NCBI GenBank assembly: GCA_030737835.1
Contig: JAUJYN010000019.1
Span: 1,944,433-2,008,432 of the forward strand
Direction: 5' to 3'
Length of the DNA stretch: 64,000 nucleotides
From: Acorus gramineus
Taxonomy: Eukaryota > Streptophyta > Magnoliopsida > Acorales > Acoraceae
Shown here: positions 2,796 to 49,076 of the stretch, in pieces
Layout: each line of letters opens with the position of its first letter
Numbering within the stretch: the stretch's first letter is position 1
Notes under the pieces: generated by a model
The model's database searches: none
Told to the model about the DNA's origin: nothing
Seen by the model: the letters and a program-made list of their open reading frames with translations, nothing else
Made by a program: the position numbers and the translations under genes

Positions 2796-5700
2796 TGTCA
2801 CGCCCCGGGCATCCCCGAGACGCGGCAAGTGTATATATAATATCAGAATCTACACAGGAGGTCAATAATATCATACACAAGCAGCCAAAATGACACACAG
2901 ACAACAAAAGCAAGACTGACAGGATATATACACCAAATGCGGATAACTAAGACTGAATCTGTAATCAAAACACACTACAGACTCCATACATAATCACATG
3001 TCCTGTGAGAGCCAATATACATACAAAGACGTCCAAATACAACACAAACGCTTTCCCAAGCACGGAAAATAATACATACTGGTACAAGGGATGCTGATAG
3101 CCTCTGCAACTCGCGGGACGTGGCGCTACTCCGCTACTGATGAAGTCCCTCGGGGAGCTCCTCCTCCGGATCCGACTCAGATGGCACTGAAGAAAATATT
3201 ATGCGAGGGGTGAGCCACACGCTCAGTGAACGGCACAACCCATGCATCACAGACAATATTGACCACAACCAGATATCCTTATAATCCACAATTCATATTA
3301 CTTAATCCACAAATGATAGCACAACTCAAAGCCGTGGGTTGCTCAATCGCCAACCCACTACACCCTCACCCTCACCCTTCAATGGGCGACAAAGGATATT
3401 GGGACTGGCTACACATAACTAGCGGGTCGCTTCCGCCAACCCGCCACACCCTCACCCTCACCCTTCAATGGGTGACATAGGATATTGGGACTAACTGCAC
3501 CAAAAACCAACGGGTCGCTTCCGCCAACCCGCTACACCCTCACCCTCACCCTTCAATGGGTGACATAGGATTTTGGGACTTACAAGCATCCAATCACAAC
3601 TCCAGTGGGTCGTTCATCGCCAACCCACTACACCCTCACCCTCACCCTTCAATGGGTGACATAGGATTTTGGGACTGACTAGGCTGTCGGTCACCCTTGG
3701 TCCACCGATAGTCTCTCCTCCACTCCGTAGGCCGCCTGGTCTACTCCCACATTCAGCACAGTCCGAACCAAATCAGGAGGTGCCTACTGATGGGAGCCCT
3801 CTGTCAGGAAGGCCTGTCTAACGCTGGGGTAGTCTCTACCGGATCCAACGAAGGGAACAGAACAGCCTACCCATCGCATATGATCCACTTGGATCCGCAG
3901 ACGGCACATTATAACAACACTAATGTTCTGAATTCCTCAGAACCCACCAGGGCGCATAACTACGATGCGGGGAACATGCATAAGGTTATAACAAGGTGGA
4001 ATATCGTTGGGGAAAGAAACTCGGGAGGGCAGCGTGAGTTCCCGTTATAGGACACCCCGACAACCAAACAAGGAACACGGTGTACCCTAACCCGGGTCTC
4101 ACCGCTGTCCTCGCAAGGCCCCTCCCCTATAATATTCACTATAACATGCATTTTAACATTTACTAGCATTTAATTTAATAAATAAACTAGTAGGGCACAT
4201 GCATCGGCCGGGCTTCCTAACATGGAACCAGGGGACATGCTGCATGGCTCATACACATATCCTAAGGGTGCAAGTCCCTAACATGTAAAGTCTAGGGTAA
4301 CATGCATTCTATAATTAAATCATGCTCGCATGATATACATATCATTGCAGGTTAATATTTATCCATGACGCCCCAGGAGAGGTCGGTATACGCCCAAATG
4401 CGTATGACCCCTCTCTACTGGGTTGGATTGTCCCACTCACCGGTATCAGGGTCGTCGCGCGACCGTCCGTCTAGATCTGCAAGACAGACATTCAATATGG
4501 TGAGAACAATGCATAAAATACCCAAAAATACATCTAAAATACCCAACACTCGGACAAACGTACATACGGCCCGTACGCACGTGTATCCGAGCATCCCGAG
4601 CGCACAGCCGAGCCTCGGCCCGCGCGCCAAGGCGCACTGCCGAGCCCAGCCCGCATACCCGGACACCACCGGTGCACTGTCGCACGCCGGCCCGCGCGCC
4701 CCGACGCACCGCCGCACGCACGCGCACACTCGCGCGCGCCCGCGCGCACCGCGCTCCAGCCAAGCGCGCCCCCGCGCGCACTGCACGCACGCCCCAGCAC
4801 GCGCACGCACTGGCCCCCAGCACCGCACGCACTGGCCCCCAGCACCGCACGCACTGGCCCCCAGCACCGCGCGCACTGGCCCCCAGCACCGCGCCCAGGC
4901 GCATGCCCAGGCGCCCTGCCCAGCACCCAGGCGAAGTGCCCAGGTGCCCTGCCGCGCGCGCGCACGCTCGGCGCACGCCCGCGCGCACCCGCGCGCACTC
5001 CCGCGCACACCCCCGCTCGCGCCAGCACCCGCGCGCACCCGCGCACCCACTCCGCGCGCACCCGCGCACCCGCGCGCACGCACCCGCGCACGACTGCGCG
5101 CCCGACTGCGCCCGCCAGCGCCCAGCACCCGGCACCCGCGACCCAGCGCTCAGCGCCCAGCGCCCAGGACCCTCACCCACGCGCACGCCCGCGCAACACG
5201 CGCCCAGCGCGCCTGGCAGCACGCGCCCAGCGCGCCTGCCAGCCTGCCCGCGCTGCTGCCCGCGTTGCCTGCCTGCGCGCGTCGCCGAGTGGCCCGAGCA
5301 CCGCTCGCCTGCACGCCCGGGGCACTGCCCGCCTGATGCCCGAGCGCCCCTGCACCCCCCGAGCGCACGCCCGCGCGCGCGCCCGCGCGCACGCGCTCGC
5401 GCGCCCAGCAAACTGGTGCCCTGCTCCCAGCCTACCCAGCTAGCCCTGCCAGCCTAGCACCCGACTAGCCCTGCACGCCCAGCACCAGGCACGCCCAGCG
5501 CCAGCCCGAGCGCACGCCCGCGCGCACGCCCGCCGCACGCACGCGCGCCCTGCCAGCGGCCCTGCCTGCTGCGCCTGCGGCTGCTGCGCCTGCTGCTGCT
5601 GCCCTGCCATCCTGCCCGAGCCCGAGCTCCTCTACCACCCACCTCCGACCACCACCACAGCCTCCGACCGCCTCCCACAGCCCTCCGACGGCCACCCACC

Positions 5701-6367: not shown

Positions 6368-6378
6368 TTCTTCCCCCC

Positions 6379-8503: not shown

Positions 8504-8515
8504 CCGAATGGCGGG

Positions 8516-9213
8516 CTATCGGTGGACCAAGGGTGATTAACAGCCTAGTCAGTCCCAATATCCTATGTCACCTGTTGAGGGGTGAGGGTGAGGGTGTATG
8601 GATGTGTATGGATGATTATAAGTCCCAATATCCTATGTCACCTATTGAGGGGTGAGGGTGTGGTGGTTCGGCGATGTAACGAACCACTGGAATTATGTTG
8701 TTAAGCCACTTTGAGGCTGGTTGTTGATTAATTGTGGTTAATATAGCTGTGATGCATGGGTTGTGCTGTTCACTGAGCGTGTGGCTCACCCCTCGCATAA
8801 TTGTTTTTCTCCAGTGATTACTGAGGCGGATCTGAAGGAGGAGCTCCCTGGGCGACTGCACCAGTAGCGGAGTAGCGCTACGTCCCTCGAGTTTCAGAGG
8901 CCATCAGCATCCTTTTGATTGTATGTATATATATTTCCGTGCTTGGGCACCCAGTTGTGTATTATTTGGATGTATGTGTGTATATTGGCTCTCACAGGAC
9001 ATATGATTATGTATCGAGTCTGTAGTATGTTTTTGGATTACAGACTCAGTCTTTTAGCTTCTGCTATCTGTGTATATATCATGTCAGCCTTGCTTTCATC
9101 TGTGTTGTTGTCATTTTAGTTGTTGTTTAGAGTGATTTATTGATTCCCTGTATAGTTGCTGATATCATGTATACACTTGCCGCGACCCGGGGACGGCCGC
9201 CTAGGGCGTGACA
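8516..9213 (+). mobile_element. LTR 3' portion, remainder of the first element's 3' LTR
   Basis: It begins within CTATCGGTGGACCAAGGGTGA and ends in GGCGTGACA, the family's LTR end. It carries the repeat unit with GGGTGAGGGTGAGGGTG, the conserved 53-nt segment at 8815-8867 after CTCCAG, and GGCTCTCACAGGACA. Orientation and content continue what is missing from 1747-2795. Confidence 0.82.
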
Positions 9214-9279
9214 TGCATGGTCCTCCATATGATGTTCCTCAATCATATTCTGTCACCCAACTTCAAATTCATCAATTGT
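9214..9279 (+). repeat. First copy of a ~94-bp direct duplication, split by a solo LTR
   Basis: The sequence from TGCATGGTCC to CATCAATTGT recurs at 12928-12995 with a single clear difference. The first copy continues after the solo LTR (12858-12881) with the same CACTACTACAATTTTTCACA start as the CACTA element, so the duplication predates the LTR insertion. Confidence 0.85.
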
Positions 9280-12200
9280 TGTCACGCCCCGGGCGTCCCC
9301 GAGACGCGGCAAGTGTATATAAAATATCAGAATCTACACAGGAGGTCAATAATATCATACACAAGCTACTAGAATGACATACAGACAACAAAAGCAGGGC
9401 TGACATGATATATACACCAAAATGCGGATAACTAAAGACTGAATCTGTAATCAAAACACACTACAGACTCCATACATAATCACATGTCCTGTGAGAGCCA
9501 ATATACATACAAAGATGTCCAAATACAACACAAACGCGTGCCCAAGCACGAAAAATAATACATACTGGTACAAGGGATGCTGATAGTCTCTGCAACTCGC
9601 GGGACGTGGCGCTACTCCGCTACTGATGAAGTCCCTCGGGGAGCTCCTCCTCCAGATCCGACTCAGATGACACTGAAGAAAATATTATGCGAGGGGTGAG
9701 CCACACGCTCAGTGAACGGCACAACCCATGCATCACAGACAATATTGACCACAACCAGATATCCTTATAATCCACAATTCATATTACTTAATCCACAAAT
9801 GATAGCACAAACTCAAAGCCGTGGGTTGCTCAATCGCCAACCCACTACACCCTCACCCTCACCCTTCTATGGGCGACAAAGGATATTGGGACTGGCTACA
9901 CATAACCAGCGGGTCGCTTCCGCCAACCCGCCACACCCTCACCCTCACCCTTCAATGGGTGACATAGGATATTGGGACTAACTGCACCAAAAACCAACGG
10001 GTCGCTTCCGCCAACCCGCTACACCCTCACCCTCACCCTTCAATGGGTGACATAGGATTTTGGGACTTACAAGCATCCAATCACCACTCCAGTGGGTCGT
10101 TCATCGCCAACCCACTACACCCTCACCCTCACCCTTCAATGGGTGACATAGGATTTTGGGACTGACTAGGCTGTTGGTCACCCTTGGTCCACCGATAGTC
10201 TCTCCTCCACTCCGTAGGCCGCCTGGTCTACTCCCACATTCAGCACAGTCCGTCCTAAATCAGGAGGTGCCTACTGATGGGAGCCCTCTGTCAGGAAGGC
10301 CTGTCTAACGCTGGGGTAGTCTCTACCGGATCCAACGAAGGGAACAGAACAGCCTACCCATCGCATATGATCCACTTGGATCCGCAGACGGCACATTATA
10401 ACAACACTAATGTTCTGAATTCCTCAGAACCCACCAGGGCGCATAACTACGATGCGGGGAACATGCATAAGGTTATAACAGGGTGGAATATCGTTGGGGA
10501 AAGAAACTCGGGAGGGCAGCGTGAGTTCCCGATATAGGACACCCCGACAACCAAACAAGGAACACGGTGTACCCTAACCCGGGTCTCACCGCTGTCCTCG
10601 CAAGGCCCCTCCCCTATAATATTCACTATAACATGCATTTTAACATTTACTAGCATTTAATTTAATAAATAAACTAGTAGGGCACATGCATCGGCCGGGC
10701 TTCCTAACATGGAACCAGGGGACATGCTGCATGGCTCATACACAAATCCTAAGGGTGCAAGTCCCTAACATGCAAAGTCTAGGGTAACATGCATTCTACA
10801 GTTTAATCATGCTCGCATGATATACACATTACAATATGTCAATATTTATCCATGGTGCCCCAGGAGAGGTCGGTATACGCCCAAGTGCGTATAACACCTC
10901 TCTACTGGGTTGGATTGTCCCACTCACCAGAGATCGGGGTCGTCGCGCGACCGTCCGTCTAGATCTGCAAGACAGACATTCAATATGGTGAGAAACCACA
11001 CAATTTATACATAGAAATGCGTAGAAATACCCAAAACTCGGATAAGCATGCATACGGGCTCGCACGCATGCGAGCGCGCGTGTACGCACGCGAGTCCGAG
11101 TGCCCCGACACCTACCCGAACCCTCGGGCAGCCATTCGCATGGCCCCCTGCATGCGCACGCACGAATGCGCACGCACGCACACACCCCGGCACCATCGGC
11201 GCACTGCCGCGCGCTTGCCCGCGAGCCCAGACGCGCACCCGCACGCATGCGCACGCTCGCGCGCGCCCACGTGCACCGCGCGTCCAGCCCGCGCCCCTCG
11301 CGCAGCACCCCGCGCACTGCCCCAGCACGCCCCAGCATGCCCCAGCACGCCCCAGCGCGCGCACGCACGCGCATGCACGCGCGTGCGCGCACTGGTTCCC
11401 TGCCCAGCGCCCAGGCGCACTGGCCGCGCGCGCGCACGCCCGCGCACCCCCGCGCGCACCCGCGCGCACTCCCGCGCACACCCCCGCTCACGCCAGAACC
11501 CGCGCGCACCCGCGCGCCCGCTCCGCGCGAACCCGCGCACCCGCGCGCACGCACCCGCGCGCGACTGCGCCCGCCAGCGCCCAGACACCCAGCACCCTCG
11601 GCCAGCACCCGGTACCCGCGACCCGCGCCCAGCGCTCAGCGCCCAGCACCCGGGACCCTCACCCAGCGTCCACGCGCACGCCCGCGCAACACGCGCCCAG
11701 CGCGCCTGGCAGCACGCGCTCAGCGCGCCTGCCAGCCTGCCCGCGCTGCTGCCCGCGTTGCCTGCCTACGCGCGTCGCCGAGTGGCCCGAGTACCGCTCG
11801 CCTGCACGCCCGGGGCACTGCCCGCCTGATGCCCGAGCGCCCCTGCACCCCCCGAGGGCACGCCCGCGCGCGCGCCCCCGCGCACGCGCTCGCGCGCCCA
11901 GCAAACTGGTGCCCTGCTCCCAGCCTACCCAGCTAGCCCTGCCAGCCTAGCACCCGACTAGCCCTGCACGCCCAGCACCAGGCACGCCCAGCGCCAGCCC
12001 GAGCGCACGCCCGCGCGCACGCACGCGCGCGCCCTGCCAGCGGCCCTGCCTGCTGCGCCTGCGGCTGCTGCGCCTGCTGCGCCTGCCCTGCCATCCTGCC
12101 CGAGCCCGAGCTCCTCTACCACCCACCTCCGACCACCACCACAGCCTCCGACTGCCTCCCACAGCCCTCCGACGGCCACCCACCGCCGCCAACCGCCTCC

Positions 12201-21757: not shown

Positions 21758-22956
21758 TGTTAAGACCGTGTCACATTTTGGTTGTAAAATATCGTATTTT
21801 ATTTATTTTAAAAAGTTTGAGCACTCAGTTTAAAAATCTGATTGCATATTTACTCTCGCAGTACTGGCATTGGCATACCTGAAAATTTTCATCGCATTCT
21901 GAGATTGTTTTAGAAATTACGCAGTTCTGACTGGTATCTGGGTTTGATTTTTACTGGATTGAAAAATGGGTGAAATTGATGTTTCATCTTTCATTAACGT
22001 GCCAAGCAAGCCACCCCCATTTTTTAAATCACTATTTGGTGAGTGATACTTGCATACACTCACCCCCCTAACCATCTCATTACACCAAACTCTCATTTAA
22101 GCCTTTTTATCTCCATCTCTCTCTTTGTGTTACGACCAGCAGAGAATGAGAAGGAGAGAAAGTGAAGGAAAGTGTTATATATGTGTCACTTTTATCCTTC
22201 TGGTCACCATTGGAACATTCTGGCAGTTTTTTTCAACTTTTTTGTTTTTCGATTTGAACCGCTAAAATTTTGGACTTTTAGCTATCATCCTGAGTTTGAG
22301 GACTCCGATTGAAAATCTAACTGCATATTATGTGTCCTGGTGCCATTTCGAGCCACTCACAAAAATTTCATCGAATTCCGGTAACGTTTCAGAATTTCGC
22401 AGTTCCGAATCGTATCCGGGTTTTGACCGAGCGAAAAGTCTTTGGGAGACTTGACTTGGTCAATGTGGGCCCATGACTTGGTCAATTGATTTTGGATTTT
22501 AGTGTGGTTGGGTTGACTAGGGTCAAATCTCACCTAAGTGCACCTAAACCTAGCCTAAACCTAATTAATTAGCCCTAAGTGAGTGGGTGTGAGAGTGTGT
22601 GGTGTGTGTGTGAGCATAAATAAATCCCACGACAACAAAAAGCTCCCCCACTATTCATCATCTCTTCCAACTCTCTCAAGCTCTCTCTCCCTCTCTTTAT
22701 TTCCCCCTTTGGACCTAGTTCAAGTGTTCAAAAGAAGAAGCCCTAAGAAGAGAAAAGATAGGTATTGTCCCGATCTATCTTCCGGTGGTCTCGGATTCGA
22801 GTTCCCTCTTGTGTGACCCCCTCTCATAGCCTCTTTTCTCCCCTGTTTTCAGCCCTTCCTTGGCTGAGAGGAGATCTTGGTGGTGGTGGTCTTGGAGGTG
22901 GCAAATCGGTGCGCGAAGAGCACCCGTTCTTCCTCCCCTTTCCTTCCTCTCCTTGG

Positions 22957-23876
22957 GTGAGTTTCTTTCCTTCCTTTTCTTGTTTAGATACTTTATTAGG
23001 AGATGTTTTTGGGTATGCATGGCTTTCATGGTGGTTTTGGGTGGCTGTCGGTGGCTGTTGGTGGCGGTTGGGGTGGTAGAGCCGGCTCGGGCAGTGCGGG
23101 CTCATCGGGCCTGCGCGCGCGGGCAGGCAGGCAGGCAGACAGCGCAGGCTGGCAGGCGCTGGGCAGGCGCGCTGTCGGGCGAGCTGGCAGGGCACGCTGG
23201 CGTGCGCGCGGGTGCTGCGCAGGGGGCGCAGTACACGGGTTGAGCGAGTGGTGTGCGGGTGCTGCGCGCTGGGCGCCGTGCGGGGGCGCGCGTGCGGAGC
23301 GCTGCGCAGAGGCGCAGTGCGTGTTGTGCGCGCGGGGCCGCGTGCGGGTGATGCGCGCTGGGCGCCGTGCGGGGGCGTGCGCGCGGAGCGCTGCGCAGAG
23401 GCGCAGTGCGTGCTGTGCGCGCGGTGAGGCGAGCGAGGAGTGCGTGCGGGGCACTGCGCCGGGGCGCAGTGCGGGCGGGGGTGCGCGCGAGGCGCTGCGC
23501 TGGGTCGCAGTGCGCGCGGGTGCATCCGGGCCTGGATGCACGGTGCGCACGGGCGCACGCGTGCGTGCGCCCGTGCGCACCGTGCGTGCGCCCGAGCATG
23601 CGGTGTGTCGGGGCGCGCGGGCTGGGCTCGGCAGCGTGTCCGGGCATGCGGGCAGGGGGCTCGACAGTGCGTCTGGGCGCGCGGGCTGGGGCGCGGCTGT
23701 GCGCCCGGGGCGGGTGGCCGTGCGTATGGCTGCCCGGGGGTTCGGGAGTGTGTCGGGGTGCTCGGACTCGCGTACGTACGGGCCGTATGTACGTTTGTCC
23801 GAGTGTTGGGTATTTTTAGTGTATTTTTGTATGTATTTGTGTATTTTACTCACCGTGTTAAATACCTGTCTTGCAG
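22957..23876 (+). other. Predicted LTR intron 1 (GTGAGT..TTGCAG) with GC-rich core
   Basis: The stretch opens with TTGG/GTGAGTTTC and ends CCTGTCTTGCAG/ATCT. Equivalent pairs occur in other copies: GTGAGC 30808 to CAG 31574, GTAAGC 46665 to CAG 47589, GTGAGC 51668 to CAG 52376. The interior is an alternating G/C tract that differs widely in length and sequence between copies. Splicing is inferred from signals and conservation only. Confidence 0.5.
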
Positions 23877-23912
23877 ATCTTGACGGACGGTCACGCGACG
23901 ACCCGGGTATTG
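23877..23912 (+). other. Conserved 36-nt putative microexon of the LTR
   Basis: It begins ATCTTGACGGACGG and lies between CTTGCAG and GTGAGTGG. In the frame starting at its third base it reads LDGRSRDDPGI. Exactly 36 nt also at 4441-4476(-), 31575-31610, 38810-38845, 45883-45918, 47590-47625, 56993-57028(-), 26089-26124 and 52377-52412; 37 nt at 10928-10964(-). Copy differences fall mainly at third codon positions (CTT/CTA/CTC, CGG/CGA, TCA/TCG, CCG/CCT/CCC/CCA). Confidence 0.55.
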
Positions 23913-24750
23913 GTGAGTGGGACAATCCAACCCAGTAGGGAGGCGCTATATGCACTTGGGCGTATACCGTCCTCCCCTGGGACACCATAGTTTAATATTA
24001 ACTTGTATAATATGTAATCTATGCAAGCATGATTAGTATGTAGTATGCATGCCACCCTAGACCTTGTATGTTAGGGACTTGCACCCTTAGGATATGTGTA
24101 AGAGCCATGCATCCTGACACCATGTTTTCATGCTAGGAAAACCTCGACCTATGCATGTGTCCTATTAGTTTAATTTATTAAATTAAATGCGAACTTATGG
24201 TATTTTTGCATGCCTTAGTAAATATTATAACCTGGTGGTTATAATATATGTTCCCCGCATCTTGGTTATGCGCCCTGGAGGAATTCTGAAGAATTCATGA
24301 CATTAGAGTTGTTGAGATGCGTTGCCGACGGATCCGAGTGGATCGTATACGTGTGGATAGGCTGTTTCTTTCCCTTCGTTGGATCCGTATAGAGACTGCC
24401 CCAGTGTTAGACAGGCCTTCCTGACAGAGGGCTCCCATCAGTAGGCACCTCCTGATTTGGGTTCGGACTGTGCTGAATTGTGGGAGTAGACCAGGCGGCC
24501 TACGGAGTGGAGGAGAGACTATCGGTGGACCAAGGGTGATTAACAGCCTAGTCAGTCCCAATATCCTATGTCACCTATTGGAGGGTGAGGGTGAGGGTGT
24601 GGTGGGTCGGCGATGTAGCGACCCACTGGATTGTGTAGTTCCTGCCACTTTGAGGCTTTGAATAATTATTTGTGGTTAATATGAATTGTGATGCATGGGT
24701 TGTGCTATTCACTGAGCGTGTGGCTCACCCCTCGCATAATTTTTCTCCAG

Positions 24751-24803
24751 TTATCACTGAGTCGGACTTGAAGGAGGAGCTCCCCGAGGGACTTCATCAG
24801 TAG
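24751..24803 (+). other. Conserved 53-nt putative terminal coding exon of the LTR
   Basis: After TTTTTCTCCAG it reads ITESDLKEELPEGLHQ and stop in the frame continuing from the 36-nt segment. The length is 53 nt in all eight copies: 3134-3186(-), 8815-8867, 9620-9672(-), 24751-24803, 32670-32722, 39911-39963, 48679-48731 and 56018-56070(-). The TAG is kept in all. The acceptor is CAG except at 48676-48678, where it is CTG. Confidence 0.55.
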
Positions 24804-26400
24804 CGGAGCAGTGCCACGTCCCGCGAGTGTTAGAGGCCATCAGCATCCTTTCTTTTGATTGTATGTATTATATTTCCATGCTTGGGCACTCGTTTGTATT
24901 ATATTTGGATGTATTCGTGTATATTGGCTCTCACAGGACAGTTGATTATGTATCGAGTCTGTAGTATGTTTTTTAATTACAGACTCAGTCTTTTAGCTTC
25001 CGCTATCTGTGTATATATCATGTCAGCCTTGCTTTCGTCTGTGTTGTCATTTTAGTTGTTGTTTAGAATATGTTATTGATCTCCTGTATAGACTGCTGAT
25101 ATCATGTATACACTTGCCACGTCCCGGGGATGGCCGCCCTGGGGCGTGACAGAAAGGAAGCAAAGTGGTGGAGTGTAGGAGGAGAAGGTAGTGTGTGTGT
25201 GTTTGTGCTTGTGAAACCAACCCCTCTTCTTCCTCTTCCTCTCAAAGGTCATTCCTTTTCCCCCTTATTGGTGTTGTTTGTGTGTCCGTTTGTGCTGAGA
25301 AATAGTGGCTGAATGTATGTGTATTATTTGTTTGTGAGAGGGAGTGTGTGTAAGCTTGGTAGCATGTGATGGTGATGGTGGGAGCCCTTATGTGCACCCT
25401 CTTCTCTTCTTCCCAAGGTATTTTCACCTCCCCTTTGTACCATGTAGATGTTAGTGTTTATGCTTCAAAGAAGTATGAGTGTTGCTATCTAGTATTTTGG
25501 GTGGTCAGCAAGGATGTACAAGTCCTGTTGTATGTGTTTTTCCCCTTTCTTGTTGTTGGGGGGTTTTGTGTTGTTGTAAGGCAGATTTCTGTCTTGTGAA
25601 AATCCTTATGAAATTAGTACCTAGATGCATGTTATGAAGATTATTATGTCTGCATGTGATTTGATCATCCAGGTGTCTAGATGCTATATATGAAATTTGG
25701 TGTCATAATATTACCTGTGTTGTAAGCTATAACCTGTTTTGCAATGACTGTCCAGATTCGCGTAAGAATTGACCAGTTTATGAAAATATTTTATTTCATT
25801 AATTTAGAGATTAACTAAAGTTATGATATCTTCACGGATTATGATCCCAACATGTCGTAGAATGTGTGTGACGTATGTCAGAATTTTAGGATAAGCATTT
25901 GGTGCCATGGAGACCAACATTTAGGGCTGGTTGTAGTAGATGTACCAGTTTTTGCATAATTATGTGTCAAAAAAGAGTTATTATGCATGGTGTGGGCAAT
26001 ATCAGGAGTTGTTGTCTTCATGAAGTAGGTTTGTATATGTGTTAGGATGCTTTATATTTAATTGAGCATCATTGGTTGTGTGTTGCAGATCTCGTAGACC
26101 GGATAAGCGACGATCCAAGTACCTGTGAGTGGTTCGATCCACCCTTTCGGGAAGCGCTCGATGCACATAGTCGTGCATCGCATATACCACCTAATGCTAA
26201 CAAATATGGATCTAATATATCAATAATCTACCAATCATAATTGAGTATAACTAGGGTATCTTATATATCATGAAGTATAGAGTATGGCATGCCATAGGTA
26301 GTCTTTTGTAGTGTTGTCTTCATATTAGTAAATGCTTAGTATGATTGTGTCATATTTAGCCATGGTATGACATTTATGCTAACTTACTAGTAGGCCTATG

Positions 26401-29984: not shown

Positions 29985-32900
29985 TGTTGTGTCTGTGTCA
30001 TTAGGAGAGCTCTGTTTGAAGATTTGGGTACATAATTTTTTTTCCTAAGTTATGTATTCCTGATTTGGTATTTGGATTTGATTTTGTTAAAATCCAAGAT
30101 GAAGAGGTTTAATTATGATTTTATTATGAGATGTCCAGTTTTGAGTTAGCTTTCGCACAGAAGTGGAATTAGATCAACTGGATTCTTGTAGTAAAAGTTA
30201 TGGGTATTTTTCCAAGTATACCCCGGGGATGGAAATTCTGGCAGCAGCCCTGTTCCATGTTTGGCTCTAATTTAGGAATAGCTGGAGGGATTATCTGATC
30301 TTTTCATAAGCATGAAAGTTGTAGATAATCCTCTTAGCTTTCCATCGGTTTTGGAATTGAGCAATTCGGAGCTGTATCGGGGAAGTTATGGCTGTTCCAG
30401 TGAAGCTTGCGCAGAATTTCTAGTCGAAGGGCGACTTAGTAATTCCCCCTTAAGATATTTGTTGATAAATATCTCTTCTCCTCTCTCTCTCCCCTCCCAA
30501 AAATCCCACAAGTAGCTTTTCTTGCCTCTCTTTCTCTTTTCATTTGCCCCCCCCCCCCCCCAATGTGTTTGATGAAAGGTCTCAAAGAGAAGGAAGAGGT
30601 GGTGGAGGAAGTGGTGGTTGATCTTGTGTTCTTGTGTTGATGTTGTTTGTTCCCCTCTCTCTCAAGCTCTTTGCATGGAATCCCCCCCCCCCCCTGTTTT
30701 GCTGCCATGGAGGGCTGAGGAGGCCGAGGAGAGGTGGTGGTGGTCCCGGTGGCGGCGTTTCGGTGCGCGAAGGGCCCCTGAACCTCCCCTTTTGTCCCCC
30801 CTCCAAGGTGAGCTCCTCCCCTTCTTTTCTTGATTTTCTTGGCTTAAGGGGTTGGTTGGGGAGTCATGCATGCTAGGTAGAGGTGTTAGGGTGTGTGTGA
30901 GGGGTTTGGATGGGTGAAAATGAGGTTGGGATGGCTTGGGAGCGCGCTGGGGGCGGTCTGCGTGCGTGCGCGCGCAGGCGCGCGGGCAGGCGGGCACAGG
31001 CAGGCGTTGGCTGGCACAATCCGGCGCGCAGTTGCGCGCGGGTGAGTGCGCGCCGGTGCGCGGGTGCGCGCGGGTGCAGGCGCGAGCGGGGGTGCGCGCG
31101 GGCGTGCGCGCGAGCGTGCGCGCGCGCGGGCAGGGCGCTTGGGCACTGCGCCTGGGCGCGAGGCAGGGCGCCTGGGCACGGAGCTGGGGACCAGTGTGCG
31201 CGCGTGCGTGGGCATGCATTCGTGCGCGTGCTGGGGCGTGCGCGGGGTGCTGCGCGTGGGGCGCGGGCTGGACGCGCGGTGCGCGCGAGCGTGCGCGAGC
31301 AGGCGCGTGCGTGCGGCAGCGCGTCGGGGCATGCAGGCAGGCGCGCGGCAGTGCGTCGATGGTGCCAGAGTGTGTGCGCGCGTGCACATTCGTGCGTGCG
31401 TGCGCGTGCGGGTGGCCATGCGTATGGCTGCCCGGGGGTTCGGGAGTGAGTCGGGGTGCTCGGACTCACGTGCGTACGGGCCGTATGTACGTTTGTCCGA
31501 GTGTTGGGTATTTTTAGTGTATTTTAGTGGTATTTATGTATTTTACTCACCGAGTTGATTACTTTGTCTTGCAGATCTTGACGGACGGTCATGCGACGAC
31601 CCGGGTGTTGGTGAGTGGGACAACCCAACCCAGTTGGGAGGCGCTATATGCACTTGGGCGTATACCGTCCTCCCTTGGGGCACCATAGTTAATATTAACT
31701 GATTTATATGAAATCTGTGCAAGCATGATTAGTGTGTAGAATGCATGCCACCCTAACCTTATATGTTAGGGACTTGCACCCTTAGGATATGTGTAAGAGC
31801 CGTGCATCCTGTCACCTTTTTATCATGCTAGGAAAGCCTCGACCTATGCATGCGTCCTATTAGTTTGATTTATTAAATTAAATGCAGACTTATGATATTT
31901 TTAGCATGCCTTGGGGAATATTAAGGGGGCCTTGCGAGGTCAACATTGAGACCCGGGCTAGGGTACTCCGTGTTCCTTGTTTGGTTGGCGGGATGTCTTA
32001 TATCGGGACCTCAGGTTGCCCTCCCAAGGTTTCTTTTCCCCATTATCATCTTATATGTTCCCCGCATCTTGGTTATGCGCGCTGGAGGAATTCTGAAGAA
32101 TTCAAGACATTAGAATTGTTGAGATGTGTGTCAGCGGATCCGAGTGGATCATATGCGATGGATAGGCTGTTCTGTTCCCTTCGTTGGATCCGTGTAGAGA
32201 CTGCCCCGGCGTTAGAAAGGCTGTCCTGTGCAGGGGCTCCCATCAGTAGGCACCTCCTGATTTGGGAAGGACTGTGTTGAATGTGGGAGTGGCCAAGCGG
32301 CCTACGGAGTGGGGAGAGACTATCGGTGGACCAAGGGTGACCAACAGCCTAGTCAGTCCCAATATCCTATGTCACCTATTGAGGGGTGAGGGTGAGGGTG
32401 TGGTGGGTCGGCGATGCAGCGACCCACTGGTTTGTGTAGTTGTGGACCAAGGATGATTAACAGCTTAGTAAGTCCCAATATCCTATGTCACCTATTGAGG
32501 GGTGAGGGTGAGGGTGTGGTGGGTCGGCGATGTAGCGACCCACTGGATTTGTGCAGTTCCTGCCACTTTGAGGCTTAAATAATGAGGTTGTGGTTAATAT
32601 AAATTGTGATGCATGGGTTGTGCTATTCACTGAGCGTGTGGCTCACCCCTCGCATATATTATTCTCCAGTGTTGTCTGAGTCGGATCTGAAGGAGGAGCT
32701 CCCCGAGGGACTTCATCAGTAGCGGAGTAGCGCCACGTCCCATGAGTATCAGAGGCTATCAGCACCCCTTTTTGATTGTATGTATTATATTCCGTGCTTG
32801 GGCACGCTGTTGTATATTTGGATGGTGTTGTATATATATTGGCTCTCACAGGACAGTTGATTATGTATCAAGTCTGTAATATGTTTTTGAATTACAGACT

Positions 32901-33060
32901 CAGTCTTTTAGCTTCCGCTATTTATGTATATATCCTGTCAGCTTCATTGTTGTCTGTGTTGTCATATTGATGTTGTTTAGGGTATGTTATTGACCTCCTG
33001 TTTAGACTGCTGATATCATATATACACTTGCCGCGTCCCGGGGATGCCCGGGGCGTGACA
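29985..33060 (+). repeat. 5' LTR of the complete element
   Basis: It starts TGTTGTGTCTGTGTC, ends GGGCGTGACA, and is 3076 bp. It has a C-run (about 30548-30560), an ATG at 30675 opening a frame to the donor-like AAG/GTGAGC at 30808, a GC core (about 30945-31430), the 36-nt segment 31575-31610, hairpin 31636-31674, module 31919-32041, two repeat units (32355-32547) and the 53-nt segment 32670-32722. Confidence 0.94.
30675..30807 (+). other. Candidate first coding exon of the LTR small reading frame
   Basis: The ATG at 30675 opens a Pro/Trp/Arg-rich frame (MESPPPPVLLPWRAEEAEE, then WWWSRWRRFGARRAP) that reaches the donor-like site in the phase needed to join the 36-nt and 53-nt segments in frame. 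The solo LTR at 22173 has the same phase, but the 3' LTR copy and most others do not, partly through C-run length changes. This first exon is therefore uncertain. Confidence 0.3.
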
Positions 33061-33065: not shown

Positions 33066-33077
33066 TGGTATCAGAGC
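33066..33077 (+). other. Primer binding site for tRNA-iMet
   Basis: TGGTATCAGAGC, complementary to the 3' end of plant initiator methionine tRNA, starts five bases after the 5' LTR. This is the standard minus-strand priming site of plant gypsy elements. Confidence 0.95.
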
Positions 33078-33179: not shown

Positions 33180-33397
33180 ATGCTTCCTCGTGGAGGACGG
33201 CGCGGACATGGTCCCTCTCGACCTTTGGAGGTTTCTGGACCTATCAAAGGCGAGGATGCTACTGGAGAGTCCACGGCTGTGAGGCCAGGATCAGCGCAGG
33301 AGCCTCCTGCATGGGAGCGCGTGTTCGCTCGGATAGCGGATTTGGTGGAGACTCAGACGAGAGCATTAGAGGCTAATATGAGTGTGTTGGTTGTTGT
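33180..33397 (+). pseudogene. gag N-terminus of the complete element
   Basis: An ATG at 33180 opens MLPRGGRRGHGPSRP, a basic start like that of Tekay-type gags, and continues to ARIADLVETQTRALEANMSV. It then runs into LTR-like sequence, so capsid, zinc knuckle and most of protease are missing. Confidence 0.75.
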
Positions 33398-37249: not shown

Positions 37250-40200
37250 TGTTGTGTCTGTGTCATTTGGAGCGCTCTGTTTGAAGATTTGGGTACATAA
37301 TTTTTTTCCTAAGTTATGTATTCCTGATTTGGTATTTGGATTTGATTTTGTTAAAATCCAAGATGAAGAGGTTTAATTATGATTTTATTATGAGATGTCC
37401 AGTTTTGAGTTAGCTTTCGCACAGAAGTGGAATTAGATCAACTGGATTCTTGTAGTAAAAGTTATGGGTATTTTTCCAAGTATACCCCGGGGATGGAAAT
37501 TCTGGCAGCAGCCCTGTTCCATGTTTGGCTCTAATTTCGGAATAGCTGGAGGGATTATCTGATCTTGCCATGAACATGAAAGTTGTAGATAATCTTCTTA
37601 GCTTTCCATCGGTTTTGGAATTAAGCAATTCGGAGCTGTATCGGGGAAGTTATGGCTGTTCCAGTGAAGCTTGCGCAGAATTTCTAGTCAAGGGGCGACT
37701 TAGTAATTCCCCCTTAGATATTTGATAAATATCTCTTCTCCACTCTCTTCCCCTCCCAAAAATCCCACGAGTAGCTTTTCTTGCCTCTCTTTCTCTTTTC
37801 ATTTGCCCCCCCCCCCCCCCATGTGTTTGATGAAAGGTCTCAAAGAGAAGGAAGAGGTGGTTGAGGAAGTGGTGGTTGATCTTGTGTTCTTGTGTTGATG
37901 TTGTTTGTTCCCCTCTCTCTCAAGCTTCTTTGCATGGAATCCCCCCCCCCCTGTTTTGCTGCCATGGAGGGCTGAGGAGGCCGAGGAGTGGTGGTGGTGG
38001 TCTCGGTGGCGGCGTTTCGGTGCGCGAAGGGCCCCCGAACCTCCCCCTTTTGTTCCCCCTCCAAGGTGAGCTCCTCCCCTTCTTTTCTTGGTTTTCTTGG
38101 CTTAAGGGGTTGGTTGGGGAGTCATGCAAGCTAGGTAGAGGTGTTACGGTGTGTGTGAGGGGTTGGGATGGGTGAAAATGAGGTTGGGATGGCTTGGGTG
38201 CGCGCTGGGGGCGGTCTGCGCGCGCGCAGGCAGGCGCTGGCGGGCACAGTCGGGCGCGCAGTCGCGCGCGGGTGCGTGCACGCGGGTGCAGGCATGAGCG
38301 GGGGTGCGAGCAGGCGCGCGCGGGCGGGGGTGCGCGCGGGCGTGCGCGCGCGCGGGCAGGGCGCCTGGGCACTGCGCCTTTGTGCGAGGCAGGGCACCTG
38401 GGCAGTGCGCCTGGGCGCGGAGCTGGGGACCAGTGCGCGCGCGTGCGTGCGCGTCCGTGCGTGCGCGTGCTGGGGCGTGCGCGGGGTGCTGCGCGTGGGG
38501 CGCGGGCTGGACGGGCGGTGCGCGCGAGCGCGCGCGAGCATGCGCGTGCGTGCGGCAGCACGTCGGGGCACACGGGCAGGCATGCGGCAGTGCGCCGATG
38601 GTGCCGGGGTGTGTGCGCGCGTGCGCATTCGTGTGTGCGCGTGCGGGTGGCCGTGCGTATGGCTGCCCGGGGGTTCGGGAGTGAGTCGGGGTGCTCGGAC
38701 TCGCGTGCGTACGGGCCGTATGTACGTTTGTCCGAGTGTTGGGTATTTTTGGTGTATTTTAGTGGTATTTATGTATTTTACTCACCGAGTTGATTACCCT
38801 GTCTTGCAGATCTTGACGGACGGTCACGCGATGACCCGGGTGTTGGTGAGTGGAACAACCCAACCCAGTAGGGAGGTGCTATATGCACTTGGGCGTGTAC
38901 CGTCCTCCCCTGGGGCACCGTAGTTAATATTAACTGATTAATATGTAATCTGTGCAATCATGATTAGTGTGTAGAATGTATGCCACCCTAGCCTTGTATG
39001 TTAGGGACTTGCACCCTTAGGATATGTGTAAGAGCCATGCATCCTGTCACCTTGTTATCATGCTAGGAAAGCCTCGACCTATGCATGCGTCCTATTAGTT
39101 TGATTTATTAAATTAAATGCAAACTTATGATATTTTTAGCATGCCTTGGGGAATATTAAGGGGGCCTTGCGAGGTCAACATTGAGACCCGGGCTAGGGTA
39201 CTCTGTGTTCCTTGTTTGGTTGGCGGGATGTCCTATATCGGGACCTCAGGTTGCCCTCCCAAGGTTTCTTTTCCCCATTATCATATATGTTTCCCCGCAT
39301 CTTAGTTATGCGCCCTGGATGAATTCTGAAGAATTCATGTCATTAGAGTTGTTAACATGTGTTGTCGGCGGATCCGAGTGGATCATATGCGTATGGATAG
39401 GCTGTTCTGTTCCCTTCGTTGGATCCGTGTAGAGACTGCCCCGGCGTTAGAAAGGCTGTCCCGTGCAGGGGCTCCCATCAGTAGGCACCTCCTGATTTGG
39501 GAAGGACTGTGCTGAATGTGGGAGTGGCCAAGCGGCCTACGGAGTGGGGAGAGACTATCGGTGGACAAAGGGTGACCAACAGCCTAGTCAGTCCCAATAT
39601 CCTATGTCACCTATTGAGGGGTGAGGGTGAGGGTGTGGTGGGTCGGCGATGTAGCGACCCACTGGTTTGTGTAATTGTGGACCAAGGATGATTATCAGCT
39701 TAGTAAGTCCCAATATCCTATGTCACCTATTGAGGGGTGAGGGTGAGGGTGAGGGTGTGGTGGGTCGGCGATGTAGCGACCCACTGGATTTGTGTAGTTC
39801 CTGCCACTTTGAGGCTTAAATAATGAGGTTGTGGTTAATATAAATTGTGATGCATGGGTTGTGCTATTCACTGAGCGTGTGGCTCACCCCTCGCATATAT
39901 TATTCTCCAGTGTTGTCTGAGTCGGATCTGAAGGAGGAGCTCCCCGAGGGACTTCATCAGTAGCGGAGTAGCACCACGTCCCGCGAGTATCAGAGGCTAT
40001 CAACATCCCTTTTGATTGTATGTATTATTCCGTGCTTGGGCACGCGGTTGTATTATATTTGGATGGCGTTGTATATATATTGGCTCTCATAGGACAGTTG
40101 ATTATGTATCGAGTCTGTAATATGTTTTTGAATTACAGACTCAGTCTTTTAGCTTCCGCTATTTGTGTATATATCCTATCAGCTTCATTGTTGTCTGTGT

Positions 40201-43923: not shown

Positions 43924-46279
43924 TGTTATATATGTGTCACTTTTAACCTTCTGGTAACCGTTGGGACATTCTGGCAGTCTTTTGATTTTTTCATTTTTCG
44001 GTCGGAACCGCTAAAATTTCGGGCTGTTAGCTATATCCCTGAGATTGAGGGCTCCGATTGAAAATCTAACTGCATATTATGTGTCCTGGTGCCATTCCAA
44101 GCCGCTCACGAAAATTTCGTCGAATTCCGGTACGTTTCAGAATTTCACAGTTCCGGGGTGTATCCAGGTTTTGACCGAGCGAGAAGTCATTGGGAGACTT
44201 TGACTTGGTCAATGGGGACCTTGACTTGGTCAATTGGTTTTGGCTTTTAGTGTGGTTGGGTTGACTAGGGTCAAACCTCACCTAAGTTAACCTAAACCTA
44301 GCTTAAGCCCTAATTAAGTTTGGTTAACCCTAATTAAGTGGGGTTTGACTTATTTAAAGAAAGCTAAAATGTGCTCTTCACTATTCATTGTCTTCTCCAA
44401 CTCTTTTTCTCTCTCCCCCTCTCTCTTTTTCAAGCTTTTGAGCCACCTAGGGTCCTCAAAGCTTAAAACCTAAATCATAGAAAGGCTAGATCGGGTCCCG
44501 ATCTACGCCCCGGTGTTCTCGGATTCGAATTCCGAGAAGTTTGGCCCCTTCATCCCCCCTCTTTTCTCCCCTGATTTGGGCCATTTTGAGGGCCAAGGGA
44601 GATCCCGGCGTTGGAGGCCTTTGGGGAGAGGTTTCGGTGCGCGGAGAGCAACCGAGCATCCTTGCTTTCCCTTGGTAAGCCCTTTTTCCTCTCTTTCCTT
44701 GCATAGATGCTTGTTAGGATGATGGATTTGGGGTTGGGAGGCGGTCGGTGGCTGTGGGTGGCTGTTGGAGGTGGTTGGGGGTGGTCGGAGGCCATGGGTG
44801 GCCGGTGGTTGGTGGTGGAGGTGCTCGGACAAGGTGTTGGGCTGTCCCGGGCAGGATGCCAGGAGTGGCAGTGCTGTTCCGGGCAGTTAGCAGGGCTGGC
44901 TGGGCTGGCTCGTGTTAGCTGTGCGCGCTGGTAGGCCGGGCAGGCAGGCTGCGCGAGCATGCAGGCAGGGCGGACCGGTTGGGCAGAGAGGTTAGTAGTC
45001 TCGGGTAGCAGGCAGCACAGGCAGCGCATCAGGCAAGCGGGCAGTGCTCGAGCAGCAGGCGATCGGTACTCGGGCCACTCGGCGATGCGCGCAGGCAGGC
45101 AGCGCGGGCAGGCTGGCAGGCGCGCTGGGCGCGCGTTGCCCGGCGTGCGCATGGGCGCTGGGTGAGGGTCTCGGATGCTGGGCGCTGGGTGTGCTGGGCG
45201 AGGGTGCTGGGGCGCTGGGCGCTGAGCACTGTGTAGGAGCATGCGCGCGGGGCGCTGGGCAGAGGCGCAGGCGTGCGCGCGGTGAGGTGAGCAGCGGATG
45301 CGCGCGGGTGGGTGCGCGTGCGGGGCACTGCGCTGGGGCGCAGTGCGCGCGGGTGCACCGGTGCGGGGCTGGTCGAGCGGAAGGTGCGAGGGGGCGGGGT
45401 GCGCGCGCGGGGCGCTGCGCTGGGGCGCAGTGCGCACGGGTGCACCCAGGGCTAGGCGAGCTGTTGGTCGAGTGGGTGATGCGAGCGGTGGTGCGCGCGA
45501 GGTGCGCGCGGGGCGAGGCGCTGGGCGCGCGGGGCATACGGTGTGCACTCGGGCCAGCGCGGGGCGTGCGGTGTGCGCACGGGTTGCTGCGCTGGGGCGC
45601 AGTGGACGCGCGGTGCACCCACGGAGCTCGCCGGCGTGTCCAGGCGGCGAGTAGGGGCCCGGCGGTGCGCCTGAGTGCGCGGGCTGAGGCGCGGCGGTGC
45701 ATCCGGGGGCGAGTGGCCGTGCGGGTGGTTGCCGGGAGTGTGGGAGTGAGTCGGGGTGCTCGGGCTAACGTGCGTACAGGCCGTATGTACATTTGCCCGA
45801 GTGTTGGGTACTTTTAGAGTGTTTTTGTGTATTTTGTGGTATTTGTGGATTATACGCACCATATTAAATACCTGTCTTGCAGATTTTGACGGACGGTCGC
45901 GCGACGGCCCAAATACCGGTGAGTGGGATGATCCAACCCAGTAGGGAGGCGTTACATGCACTTGGGCATGTACCGTCCTCCCCTGGGGCACCATAGTAAA
46001 TATTAACCTGCTAATATGAAAACTATGTAAGCATGATAATCTGTAGTATGCATGTCACCCTAGATCGTATGCTAGGGACTTATACCCTTAGGACCCGTAT
46101 AAGAACCATGCACCCTGTTATCATGTTTCCATGCTAGGAAAGCCCCGACCGACGCATGTTCCTATTTAGTTTAATTTATTTAAATAAAACGCGAGCATGT
46201 GATTATTAGCCTGTCTTAGTGAATATTATAGGGGAGGGGCCTCGCGAGGACAGCGGTGAGACCCGGGCTAGGGTACTCC
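43924..46279 (+). mobile_element. Truncated long LTR (5' two thirds)
   Basis: It starts TGTTATATATGTG. Order: leader, GTAAGC near 44673, GC core (about 44940-45740), 36-nt segment 45883-45918, hairpin, and the first half of the 130-bp module. It breaks off after CTAGGGTACTCC at ~46279 where another LTR's leader begins. Confidence 0.85.
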
Positions 46280-49076
46280 TCCTCTCTTAACCCTAATTAA
46301 GCCTAGTTAACCCTAATCTAAGAGTGGGATTATATATAAGTGAATCTAAAATATCTCCCCCACTATTCATCATCTTCCCCACTTGATTTCTCTCTCTCCC
46401 TCTCTAAAAAACCTTCTTTTGACCTAGTTAGAGAGCTTGGATCTCAAAACCCAAAGAGGAGAAAGGTAAGGGGAGCTCCCGATCTATCCACCGGTGGTCT
46501 CGGATTCGAGTTCCAATGTGTTTAGCCCCTTCTCACGCCCTCTTTTCTCCCCTGTTTTCAGCCATTTCGAGGGCTGAGAAAGAGCTCGGTAGTGGTGGCC
46601 TTGGAGGAGGTGTTTCGGTGCGTGGAGAGCAACCGAACTTCCCTTCCTTCCCTTCCTTCCTTGGGTAAGCTCTCTTTCCTTCCTTTTCTTGCTTAGATGC
46701 TTGTTAGGAGGGTGGTTTTGGGTGTGTAGTGGCTGTTGGTGGTGGTTGGTGGTGGTTAGGGGCCATTGGTGGCCGGTTAGAGGAGGTAGGGTGGCTCGGG
46801 CAGGGTGGTTGGCTGTCTCGGGTAGGATGGCAGCACAGGCAGCAGGTAGCACAGCAGGCAGAGCAGATGGCAGGGCGCGCGCGGGCGTGCGCGCGGGCGT
46901 GCACTCGGGTGGAGCAGGAGGGTGTGCTGGGCGCTGGACGCTGGGCTATGGTCGCGGGTGCTGGGCGCTGGGCGCGGGTGCTGGGCGCTGGGTGATGGTC
47001 GCAGGTGCTGGGCACTGGTCGCAGGTGCTGGGCGCTGGGCGCCGTGCGCCGGTGTGCGCGTGGGGCGCTGCGCAGAGGCGCGGTGCATGCCGCGCGCAGG
47101 GGGCCGCGTACGGGTGCTGCGCGCAGGGCGCCGTGCCGGTGTGCGCGATGGGGCGAGCGGTGGTGCGCGCGGGGTGCGCGCGGGGCGAGGCGCTGGGCGC
47201 AGGGCGTGCGGATGTGCGGGGTGGGGCGAGCCGGTGGTGCGCGCGGGGCGAGGCGATGGGGCGCTGGGCGTACGGGTGTGCGCGCGAGTCGCTGCGCTGG
47301 GGCGCAGTGGGCGCGCGGTGCACCTCGGGGGACTTGGCGGAGTGTCCGGGCGTGCGGGCTGGCTCGGCAGTGCGCTGGGCACGCGGGCCGGGGCTCGGCT
47401 GTGCGCCTGGGGCGGGTGGCCGTGCGGGCGGCTGTCCGGGGGTTCGGGAGTGAGTCGGGGTGCTCGGACTCGCGTCCGTACAGGCCGTATGTACGCTTGT
47501 CCGAGTGTTGGGTATTTTTAGCGTATTTTTGTGTATTTTTGTTGTATTTTGTGTATTTTACTCACCTAGTTGATTACCCTGTCTTGCAGATCTTGACGGA
47601 CGATCGTGCGACGACTCGGTTATCGGTGAGTGGGACAACCCAACCCAGTTGGGAGGCGCTATATGCACTTGGGCGTATACCGTCCTCCCCTGGGGCACCG
47701 CAGTTGATATTAACTTGTTATATGTAATCCATGCAAGCATGATTAGTGTGTAGAATGCATGCCACCCTAGACTTTGTATGTTAGGGATCTGCACCCTTAG
47801 GATATGTGTAAGAGCCATGCATCCTGTCACCTTGTTATCATGCTAGGAAAGCCTCGACCTATGCATGCGTTCTAGTAGTTTGATTTATTAAATTAAACGC
47901 AAGCTTATGATATCTTTAGCATGCCTTAGGGAATATTAAGGGGCCTTGCGAGGTCAACATTGAGACCCGGGCTAGGGTACTCCGTGTTCCTTGTTTGGTT
48001 GGCGGGATGTCCTATATCAGGACCTCAGGTTGCCCTCCCAAGGTTTCTTTTCTCCATTATTATTTTATATGTTCCCCGCATCTTGGTTATGCGCCCTGGA
48101 GGAATTATGAAGAATTCAAGACATTAGAGTTGTTGAGATGTGTTGTCGGCGGATCTGAGTGGATCATATGCGCATGGATAGACTGTTCTGTTCCCTTCGT
48201 TGGATCCGTGTAGAGACTGCCCCGGTGTTAGAAAGGCTGTCCCGTGCAAGGGCTCCCATCAGTAGGCACCTTCTGATTTGGGACGGACTGTGCTGAATGT
48301 GGGGGTGGCCAAGCGGCCTACGGAGTGGGGAGAGACTATCGGTGGACCAAGGGTGACCAACAGCCTAGTCAGTCCCAATATCCTATGTCACCTATTGAGG
48401 GGTGAGGGTGAGGGTGTGGTGGGCCGGCGATGTGGCGACCCACTGGATTGTGTAAGGATGATTATCAGCCTATTAAGTCCCAATATCCTTTGTCACCTAT
48501 TGAGGGGTGAGGGTGAGGGTGTGGTGGTTCGGCGATGCAACGAACGACCGGAATTGTGTAGTTCCTGCCACTTTGAGGCTAGTGATTTGATTAAATGTGG
48601 TTAATATAAATTGTGATGCATGGGTTATGCAATTCACTGAGCGTGTGGCTCACCCCTCGCATAATTATTTTTCTCCTGTGATTGCCGAGGCGGACTTGAA
48701 GGAGGATCTCCCCGAGCGACTGCACCAGTAGCGGAGTACCGCCATGTCCCTCGAGTTTTAGAGGCCATCAGCATCCTTTTGATTGTATGTATATATTTCC
48801 GTGCTTGGGCACCTAGTTTGGATTGTATTTGGATGTTTGTGTTCATATTGGCTCTCACAGGACATATGATTATGTATCGAGTCTGTAAAGTGTTGTTGAT
48901 TTACAGATTCAGTCTTTTTAGCTTCCGCTATCTGTGTATACATCATGTCAGCCTCTTTGTTGTCTGTGTTGTCTTTTTAGCTGTTGTTTATGGTATGCTA
49001 TTGATCTCCTGTATTGACTGCTGATATCATGTATACGCTTGCCGCGTCCCGGGGACGGCCGCCCTGGGTCGTGACA
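46280..49076 (+). mobile_element. Long LTR lacking its 5' end
   Basis: It begins mid-leader (CTTAACCCTAATTAAGCC) and ends GGGTCGTGACA. It has TATATATAAG at 46331, GTAAGC 46665, GC core (about 46870-47440), 36-nt segment 47590-47625, module 47937-48052, two repeat units and the 53-nt segment 48679-48731. No matching target duplication was found with 42601-42605, so the three-LTR block arose by recombination or deletion. Confidence 0.85.
46331..46340 (+). promoter_or_regulatory. TATA-like box in LTR
   Basis: TATATATAAG precedes the pyrimidine-rich leader and is placed as in the neighbouring LTR. Confidence 0.55.

Follow-up and report, generated by a model that had tools for sequence, protein, structure and literature searches.

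Comparative anatomy points to a probable AUG-poor, spliced gag leader in the LTRs of an Acorus gramineus retrotransposon family

Introduction

How one retrotransposon RNA can serve both as message and as genome is an open question. In the stretch of DNA analyzed here (64,000 nt from Acorus gramineus, hereafter the window), it is touched by two short segments that recur, at almost constant length, inside long terminal repeats (LTRs). A first-pass annotation had joined these segments into a single reading frame and ascribed them to selection on a spliced, LTR-encoded peptide or protein tail. Are they parts of a protein, or exons of something else?

We read the segments in the first place as putative exons of an untranslated leader, the peptide claim being partly supported. 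The LTRs probably carry a three-exon, AUG-poor 5' leader that is spliced to gag, in which case the spliced RNA would be a message without primer binding site (PBS) and the unspliced RNA the genome. Comparison of sequences establishes the predicted splice-site anatomy and its conservation across subfamilies, and shows that the scarcity of ATGs coincides with the predicted exons and that the PBS falls inside predicted intron 3.

Results and Discussion

The LTR family and its copies in the window

The genome of this one species (398.6 Mb) was searched and about 300 kb of sequence, mostly from a single contig (C1), was sampled from it. The flank of the predicted intron 2 donor, immediately downstream of the first segment, has roughly 12,000 matches in the genome (12127 at up to 2 mismatches, versus 0 for the reversed control). 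The element is of the Ty3/gypsy type, probably a chromovirus. Its domain matches are RVP_2, RVT_1 and SH3_Tf2-1, together with a weak Chromo match that does not reach the curated cut-off (E 0.0062). The length of the LTR and the sequence of its ends suggest that it may be a member of the Tekay/Del clade. In 8 copies, including one from a distant LTR family (hereafter the X family), the LTR is followed by the PBS, TGGTATCAGAGC, which presumably fits tRNA-Met; a CTAAGGGGGGGAGAA-like polypurine tract lies 5' of the 3' LTRs. The sense of the element is that given by the first-pass annotation, since a PBS follows the LTR ending at 33060 and an integrase frame and a polypurine tract precede the LTR at 1747. 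The one LTR examined for a target-site duplication (22173-25151) is flanked on both sides by the 5-bp repeat GAAAG. No Rfam family was recognized in the window at gathering cut-offs, and the exon 2 pattern gave 0 matches against viral contigs. Coordinates are collected in Table 1.

Table 1. Features of the predicted leader and related segments in the window; exons and introns are predictions from comparison of copies
Feature	Position	Strand	Remarks
TATA-like box, copy D	22614..22624	+	CATAAATAAAT; alignment by eye
Exon 1, copy D	22650..22956	+	307 nt, no ATG; start placed at conserved CACTATTCATC, ~30-35 nt past TATA box
Intron 1, copy D	22957..23876	+	920 nt, GTGAGT...CTCACC...TTGCAG, 11 ATGs
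Exon 2, copy D	23877..23912	+	36-nt microexon; first segment of the first-pass annotation
Intron 2, copy D	23913..24750	+	838 nt, GTGAGT...GGCTCACCCC...TCTCCAG, 26 ATGs
Exon 3, copy D	24751..24860	+	110 nt, no ATG; first 53 nt, to TAG at 24801-24803, are the second segment
Intron 3, LTR part, copy D	24861..25151	+	begins GTATGT; in complete elements would extend through PBS to just before gag
Solo LTR, copy D	22173..25151	+	TGTTATAT...GGGGCGTGACA; assigned from GAAAG duplication and sequence ends
5' LTR, copy E	29985..33060	+	start as first annotated; exon 1 ends 30807, exon 2 31575-31610, exon 3 32670-32777
PBS, copy E	33066..33077	+	TGGTATCAGAGC; within predicted intron 3
gag start codon, copy E	33180..33182	+	adjoining upstream acceptor AG lost in E
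Exon 2, copy F	38810..38845	+	exon 3 begins 39911
Exon 2, copy G2	45883..45918	+	
Exon 2, copy H	47590..47625	+	exon 3 begins 48679, after CTG (48676-48678)
Exon 2, copy I	56993..57028	-	exon 3 begins 56070
Exon 2, copy C	10928..10964	-	37 nt; exon 3 begins 9672
Exon 2, copy B	4441..4476	-	exon 3 begins 3186
Second segment in LTR 3' fragment 8516-9213	8815..8867	+	
Exon 2 homologue, X family	26089..26124	+	
Exon 2 homologue, X family	52377..52412	+	LTR ending 54892

Predicted exons 2 and 3

The first segment (e2) occurs ten times in the window, eight times in the main family and twice in the X family (at 26089 and 52377, both 36 nt). Nine copies measure 36 nt and one 37 nt, just as had been annotated, the homologues in the distant LTRs included. 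Every one of them is bounded by (C/A)AG upstream and GTGAGTGG downstream. Among 73 anchors from the sampled loci and the window, 69 have a CAG or TAG 32-40 nt upstream, which yields 63 segments of 36 nt, 4 of 37 nt and 2 of 35 nt, and the remaining 4 lack CAG or TAG at a suitable distance; donor conservation in this set is not independent evidence, because the anchor itself requires a near-intact donor. The flanks read TTGCAG before and GTGAGT after e2; of the 61 copies that could be checked, 49 also have a CTCAC lying 15-38 nt before the acceptor.

The second segment (e3) opens exon 3. In all eight window copies it runs 53 nt to a TAG, one of them being preceded by CTG in place of CAG, which confirms the earlier description for the window. 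For the wider set, 138 anchors were reduced to 108 distinct typed copies by leaving out 20 of the X family, 5 that failed the acceptor rule (one without acceptor, one unrelated and three with CAG followed by A), 3 duplicates and 2 that were too short. Acceptor 2 follows a variable pyrimidine tract and is CAG in 107 of these 108 copies and CTG in the other. The length to the homologous stop is 53 nt in 62 copies, 65 nt in 22, 42 nt in 11, 59 nt in 6 and 55 nt in 2, with one copy each of 50, 52 and 71 nt and two without an assigned length. Among the sampled copies, most share one segment length (63/69 for e2, 62/108 for e3), and the others fall into further length classes. The related claim, that the surrounding DNA varies by hundreds of bases, is borne out by intron 1 (602-1372 nt in 30 copies) and has to be qualified for intron 2 and the LTR 3' end, where several aligned parts are ∼88-92% identical among copies and others 66-79%; since parts of these regions are still so similar, e2 and e3 are not islands in random sequence.

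Donor 3 is found ∼54-57 nt past the TAG in 105 of the 108 copies (GTATGT in 100, GTACGT in 5), so that exon 3 would measure 96-128 nt, and 106-121 nt in 90 of the 105. In most of 60 copies compared, no ATG follows the TAG until the one within GTATGT, which belongs to the predicted intron; in three window copies an ATG comes sooner. Both exons 2 and 3 contain more GC and less T than the intron ends next to them. As predictions, the junctions originally drawn in copy D (22956/23877 and 23912/24751) are well supported by the comparative anatomy. About 95 nt past exon 3 lies an inverted repeat (GAGTCTGTA...TACAGACTC, window 24955-24986), partly recognizable in X-family LTRs as well, that is perhaps a poly(A) or transport hairpin.

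Predicted exon 1 and intron 1

Aligned window copies share a layout for exon 1, in which a TATA box (by eye clearer at the equivalent position in copies H, I and G1) is followed by CACTATTCATC some 30 nt on, then by a stretch rich in T and C, and finally by a conserved motif resembling TCGGTGCGCG and a donor. This donor, GTRAG, lies 40-52 nt past the TCGGTGC motif and is preceded by an invariant G at 32 of 32 motif sites, for 24 of which the exon 1 start motif was also located. Modulo 3, the distance from motif to donor is 0, 1 and 2 at 12, 3 and 17 of the 32 sites, respectively. In the frame of e2 and e3 the open part of exon 1 contains no ATG in 29 of 30 copies, copy E being the sole exception, so that the start codon which a small protein gene would keep in an open frame across subfamilies was not found; for 8 of the 30 copies the start was not located and 300 nt were used instead. 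Because the donor phase varies and an in-frame ATG occurs in just one copy of 30, exon 1 does not look coding. The annotated phase match of only two LTRs (22173-25151 and 29985-33060) hinges on this first exon, and thus on a phase that is not constant.

The middle of intron 1 (window 23080-23760 and its equivalents) is extremely GC-rich and repeat-like; both of its strands contain long open frames, which are not the same from copy to copy. Exon 1 of the type seen in copies E and F is frequent genome-wide, with 3021 first-look candidates.

A predicted acceptor before gag

A further acceptor is predicted downstream of the PBS, 9-10 nt before the gag AUG. Around 110 nt past the PBS stands CTGAT...TTTTCTTAG, followed by GTTGCTGAT together with the gag start, either motif being replaced by a near form in some copies. 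Of 8 copies selected by their PBS, one of them from the X family, 7 carry the acceptor AG and window copy E lacks it. In a wider set it is present in 20 of 21 copies, a count that is not independent, as the regular expression required TTAGG or the form of the window and 12 of the 21 had been retrieved by a pattern lying over the site. Two upstream ATGs precede the acceptor, one at -63/-64 and one at -44, and 20 of the 21 copies have the former and 20 the latter; the ATG at -44 is out of frame with gag. The pattern spanning the site has 3318 matches in the genome. In the sampled copies, conserved donor/acceptor pairs follow one another in the correct order and end before the main AUG.

Scarcity of ATGs

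Relative to dinucleotide shuffles, exon 3 holds 3 ATGs where 90.5 are expected (105 copies) and exon 1 holds 17 where 45.2 are expected (24 copies). By the same measure the intron ends are near expectation, with 577 versus 691 at the end of intron 2 and 334 versus 367 at the start of intron 3. Expectations from base composition give 6 versus 24.6 for e2, 290 versus 248 for intron 1 and 2146 versus 1299 for intron 2. As the copies are related, these counts are not independent events.

Leaders could be read through to gag in four copies (L007, L025, L026 and window copy E). Splicing in silico would shorten them from 2877 to 449 nt, from 3354 to 448 nt and from 3322 to 474 nt in the first three, and would take their upstream ATGs from 48 to 0, from 59 to 0 and from 53 to 1, respectively. 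Copy E, the sole window copy with gag after LTR exons, has an exon 1 of another type, whose start was not located, and is predicted to retain 7 of 58 upstream ATGs (5 in exon 1, 1 in e2 and 1 in exon 3). Site-by-site purging of ATG-creating changes found no support, 2 of 10 possible ATG-creating kinds being seen versus 52 of 149 others; likewise, a CpG change that creates an ATG occurs in 2 of 105 copies, versus 1-11 at other CpGs, and gives no signal of purging.

A codon-like pattern in e2 and e3

In order to evaluate the claim that copy differences are mostly synonymous, parsimony changes were counted in three frames on trees of the flanking DNA, and whole sites were permuted among sites of the same base. 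In the annotated frame, codons 1-9 of e2 gave 41 synonymous (S) and 23 nonsynonymous (N) changes, with 20.3 S expected (p 0.0025); this cut was chosen post hoc, the last two codons varying freely, and over the full e2 p is 0.074. The 53-nt e3 gave 53 S and 61 N with 31.2 S expected (p 0.0025), and on internal branches 22 S versus 10.3 expected, a value as high being reached in 0 of 2000 permutations. The 65-nt class follows weakly (17 S, 12 N, 9.9 S expected; p 0.037; internal branches 0.23). No synonymous excess was seen in the other two frames of e2 and e3, and the earlier claim is upheld, on small numbers of changes, in the form of an excess over site permutation in exactly its own frame. 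This site-level test supersedes a permutation in which substitutions were placed singly (same frame, p 0.0006 for e2, 0.052 and 0.015 for e3). Of an initial 11 control windows in the flanks 2 reached p ≤0.05; the set was then widened to 212 overlapping windows, among which 6 reached p ≤0.05, 1 reached ≤0.01 and 0 reached ≤0.005. Six tests on the 36 nt past the TAG included one with p 0.023.

By codon, variation is mainly synonymous at Leu, Ser and Pro in e2, and in e3 at Asp, Leu, Pro and His; all four CTN and all four CCN codons are present at the conserved Leu and Pro of e2. A hand count found the joint frame to TAG intact in 45 of 61 linked e2+e3 pairs. The 16 broken pairs comprise six of -11 nt, four of +1, two of -1, one with a 1-nt loss and three with early stops, and the -11, +1 and -1 variants each occur at several loci. 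Of 106 e3 lengths, 92 equal 2 modulo 3, including the 50, 53, 59, 65 and 71 nt classes.

Candidate upstream coding extensions were tried and rejected. Retained intron 1, which offers a hydrophobic stretch in D-like copies, meets a stop within 5-16 codons in many copies. For a tail joined to pol, the last 260 nt of pol contain no GTRAG or GTATG in 5 of 7 copies, the other two, more decayed, having one GTGAG each; for a tail joined to Gag, a phase-1 GTGAGT 85 nt into gag exists in just 2 of 8 main-family copies, and a scan of gag in 6 copies revealed no donor common to all. One spliced model was compared with known proteins and no homologue was found, in a database that may not cover this plant group.

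The X family

The 20 X-family anchors offer a comparison at greater distance. Fourteen could be typed for e2, which measures 36, 37 and 39 nt in 4, 4 and 6 of them, respectively. Fifteen of the 20 have CAG or TAG as acceptor; exon 3 is unlike that of the main family, with an ATG in 18 of 19 and GTATGT in 7 of 19. The two families thus have part of the splice layout in common, but neither the scarcity of ATGs nor the frame of e2 and e3.

The proposed spliced leader and its rivals

In the proposed leader, exon 1 (∼300 nt after the TATA box), the 36-nt microexon and exon 3 (96-128 nt) would be spliced by the host to a fourth exon that begins just before gag, at the acceptor described above. The product would be a capped gag(-pol) message with a leader of ∼450-475 nt, in which the gag AUG is first or nearly so and may be reached by scanning ribosomes. 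Since the PBS lies within intron 3, spliced RNA would be without it and could not prime reverse transcription; RNA escaping splicing would retain the PBS, dozens of upstream AUGs and the LTR sequence in full, and would act as genome. Were the poly(A) site located past donor 1, splicing would affect the 3' LTR as well. Genome searches for e2|e3 and e3|gag fusions returned 0 matches each, the e2|e3 search having been run without a positive control; such a result would follow if spliced RNA were never reverse-copied into the genome, and just as well if there were no splicing at all. Several observations run counter to the leader. The GC-rich middle of intron 1 is atypical for plant introns, a purely untranslated leader does not predict the synonymous excess in e2 and e3, copy E would keep some of its upstream ATGs and its type of exon 1 is common, and the X family has an ATG-bearing exon 3 and incompletely kept acceptor and GTATGT sites.

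The codon-like pattern invites other readings. That e2 and e3 encode a peptide or protein tail under purifying selection, made from spliced RNA and started either within exon 1, at a codon other than AUG, or in a further upstream exon, retains from the first-pass annotation the synonymous excess, which is specific to this frame in each of the two exons and exceeds that of the 212 overlapping flank windows; the complete sets of CTN and CCN codons, the 45 of 61 pairs in frame, the 92 of 106 lengths and the in-frame exon 1 ATG of copy E speak for it too. We nevertheless consider it unlikely, given the absence of an ATG from the open exon 1 of 29 of 30 copies, the inconstant phase of that exon, the 16 broken pairs with their recurrent -11, +1 and -1 nt variants, the stops that follow soon in retained intron 1, the lack of a shared donor in the pol end (5/7) or in gag (6 copies), the want of a homologue for one spliced model in a database of possibly partial coverage, and an X family that keeps neither length nor stop. 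A more serious candidate, if short of an even chance, is that the pattern is incidental, GAG/GGA triplets and the splice-site phase being maintained by splicing enhancers of purine-rich sequence and by RNA-binding sites, and the free bases happening to be third positions. Enhancers alone leave unexplained the mainly synonymous variation at Leu, Asp, Pro and His of e3, yet e3 is made up of successive GAGGAG/GAGCTG-like words, the last two codons of e2 vary freely, one of the six tests past the TAG gave a low p, and the 59, 65 and 71 nt variants resemble steps of a 6-nt repeat. It seems quite improbable that the LTR leader is splicing switch and coding unit at once, a non-AUG-initiated micropeptide that ends at the conserved TAG tuning or reporting gag translation while removal of the PBS commits the RNA to message or genome. 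In the preferred model, the annotated frame itself lies within the proposed leader.

Other rivals concern the predicted splice sites themselves. Each LTR could be a full gene, with promoter, three exons and a poly(A) signal, producing an LTR-only RNA, coding or not, of which exon 3 would be terminal. The solo LTR does retain all of these parts, and T-rich sequence and the inverted repeat follow exon 3; this is highly doubtful in view of a GTATGT/GTACGT donor that stands, in 105 of 108 copies, exactly where the ATG scarcity ends, and of the acceptor before gag. Likewise, the conserved blocks could be signals in DNA or unspliced RNA that resemble splice sites by chance, GT and AG words being common and no spliced copy having been found in the genome. 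We hold such an absence of splicing to be very unlikely, since six predicted sites are conserved in the correct order amid varying neighbors and the ATG scarcity switches at the same borders.

Relation to known systems

In retroviruses with a major donor in R or U5, spliced RNA lacks the PBS and makes env or accessory proteins, and gag is translated from unspliced RNA. The predicted leader resembles this layout in its donor within LTR/leader, its acceptor before a gene and the loss of the PBS on splicing. It differs in that the acceptor stands before gag, so that for gag the predicted arrangement is reversed.

A 2025 review describes plant LTR elements as generally intron-less, Ogre and EVADE being among the exceptions (PMC12786077). 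BARE1, a Ty1/copia element of barley, is described as having distinct RNA pools that differ by promoter and cap, and a 104-nt intron at the gag end whose removal gives a Gag-only RNA (PMC3735527). It has spliced and unspliced RNAs, and separate RNAs for translation and replication, as the family studied here would have; the predicted introns of the present family, in contrast, lie in the LTR/leader and would remove the PBS. Ogre, a plant Ty3/gypsy element, has an intron between gag-pro and RT that is spliced in a subset of transcripts; it joins coding regions internally and does not lie in the LTR/leader (PMC6317226, PMC3735527). For EVADE and the sunflower elements Tyran and Varan, splicing also yields separate messages, in the form of short-GAG isoforms, in part with early termination; there it is the coding part that is shortened, and the sections consulted mention no LTR leader introns (PMC12786077, PMC7730604). 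Judging by titles and abstract openings of the top-ranked papers, no report of leader introns within plant LTRs was found in the literature. If the leader is spliced as proposed, introns whose excision takes away the PBS along with most upstream AUGs at one stroke would be a simple physical answer to the question of message and genome, in a family with thousands of LTR copies.

Other observations in the window and on contig C1

Matches to the X-family motif AGCTCACCCCTCGCATA on contig C1 (∼24.4-31.6 Mb) are often 6-7 kb apart and, among the matches listed, the perfect ones beyond 24.4 Mb are all on the plus strand. The genome total at 1 mismatch is strand-balanced (7469 versus 7666), and the run on C1 raises the question of tandem arrays or of an orientation bias along an arm.

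Copies B and C (window 2796-12852, minus strand) lie on the same strand 6.5 kb apart, with just 2.9 kb between them, and possibly form a shortened, dependent element. The 2.9-kb interval contains the opposite-strand LTR fragment 8516-9213, and L025 has a similarly short spacing. In copy E, the internal region 33560-33775, after the gag start, resembles intron 2 LTR sequence of other copies, which suggests a recombinant or nested element. Finally, a 206-aa open frame at 49566-50186 (plus strand) consists of a degenerate repeat (STQ...F..K..F).
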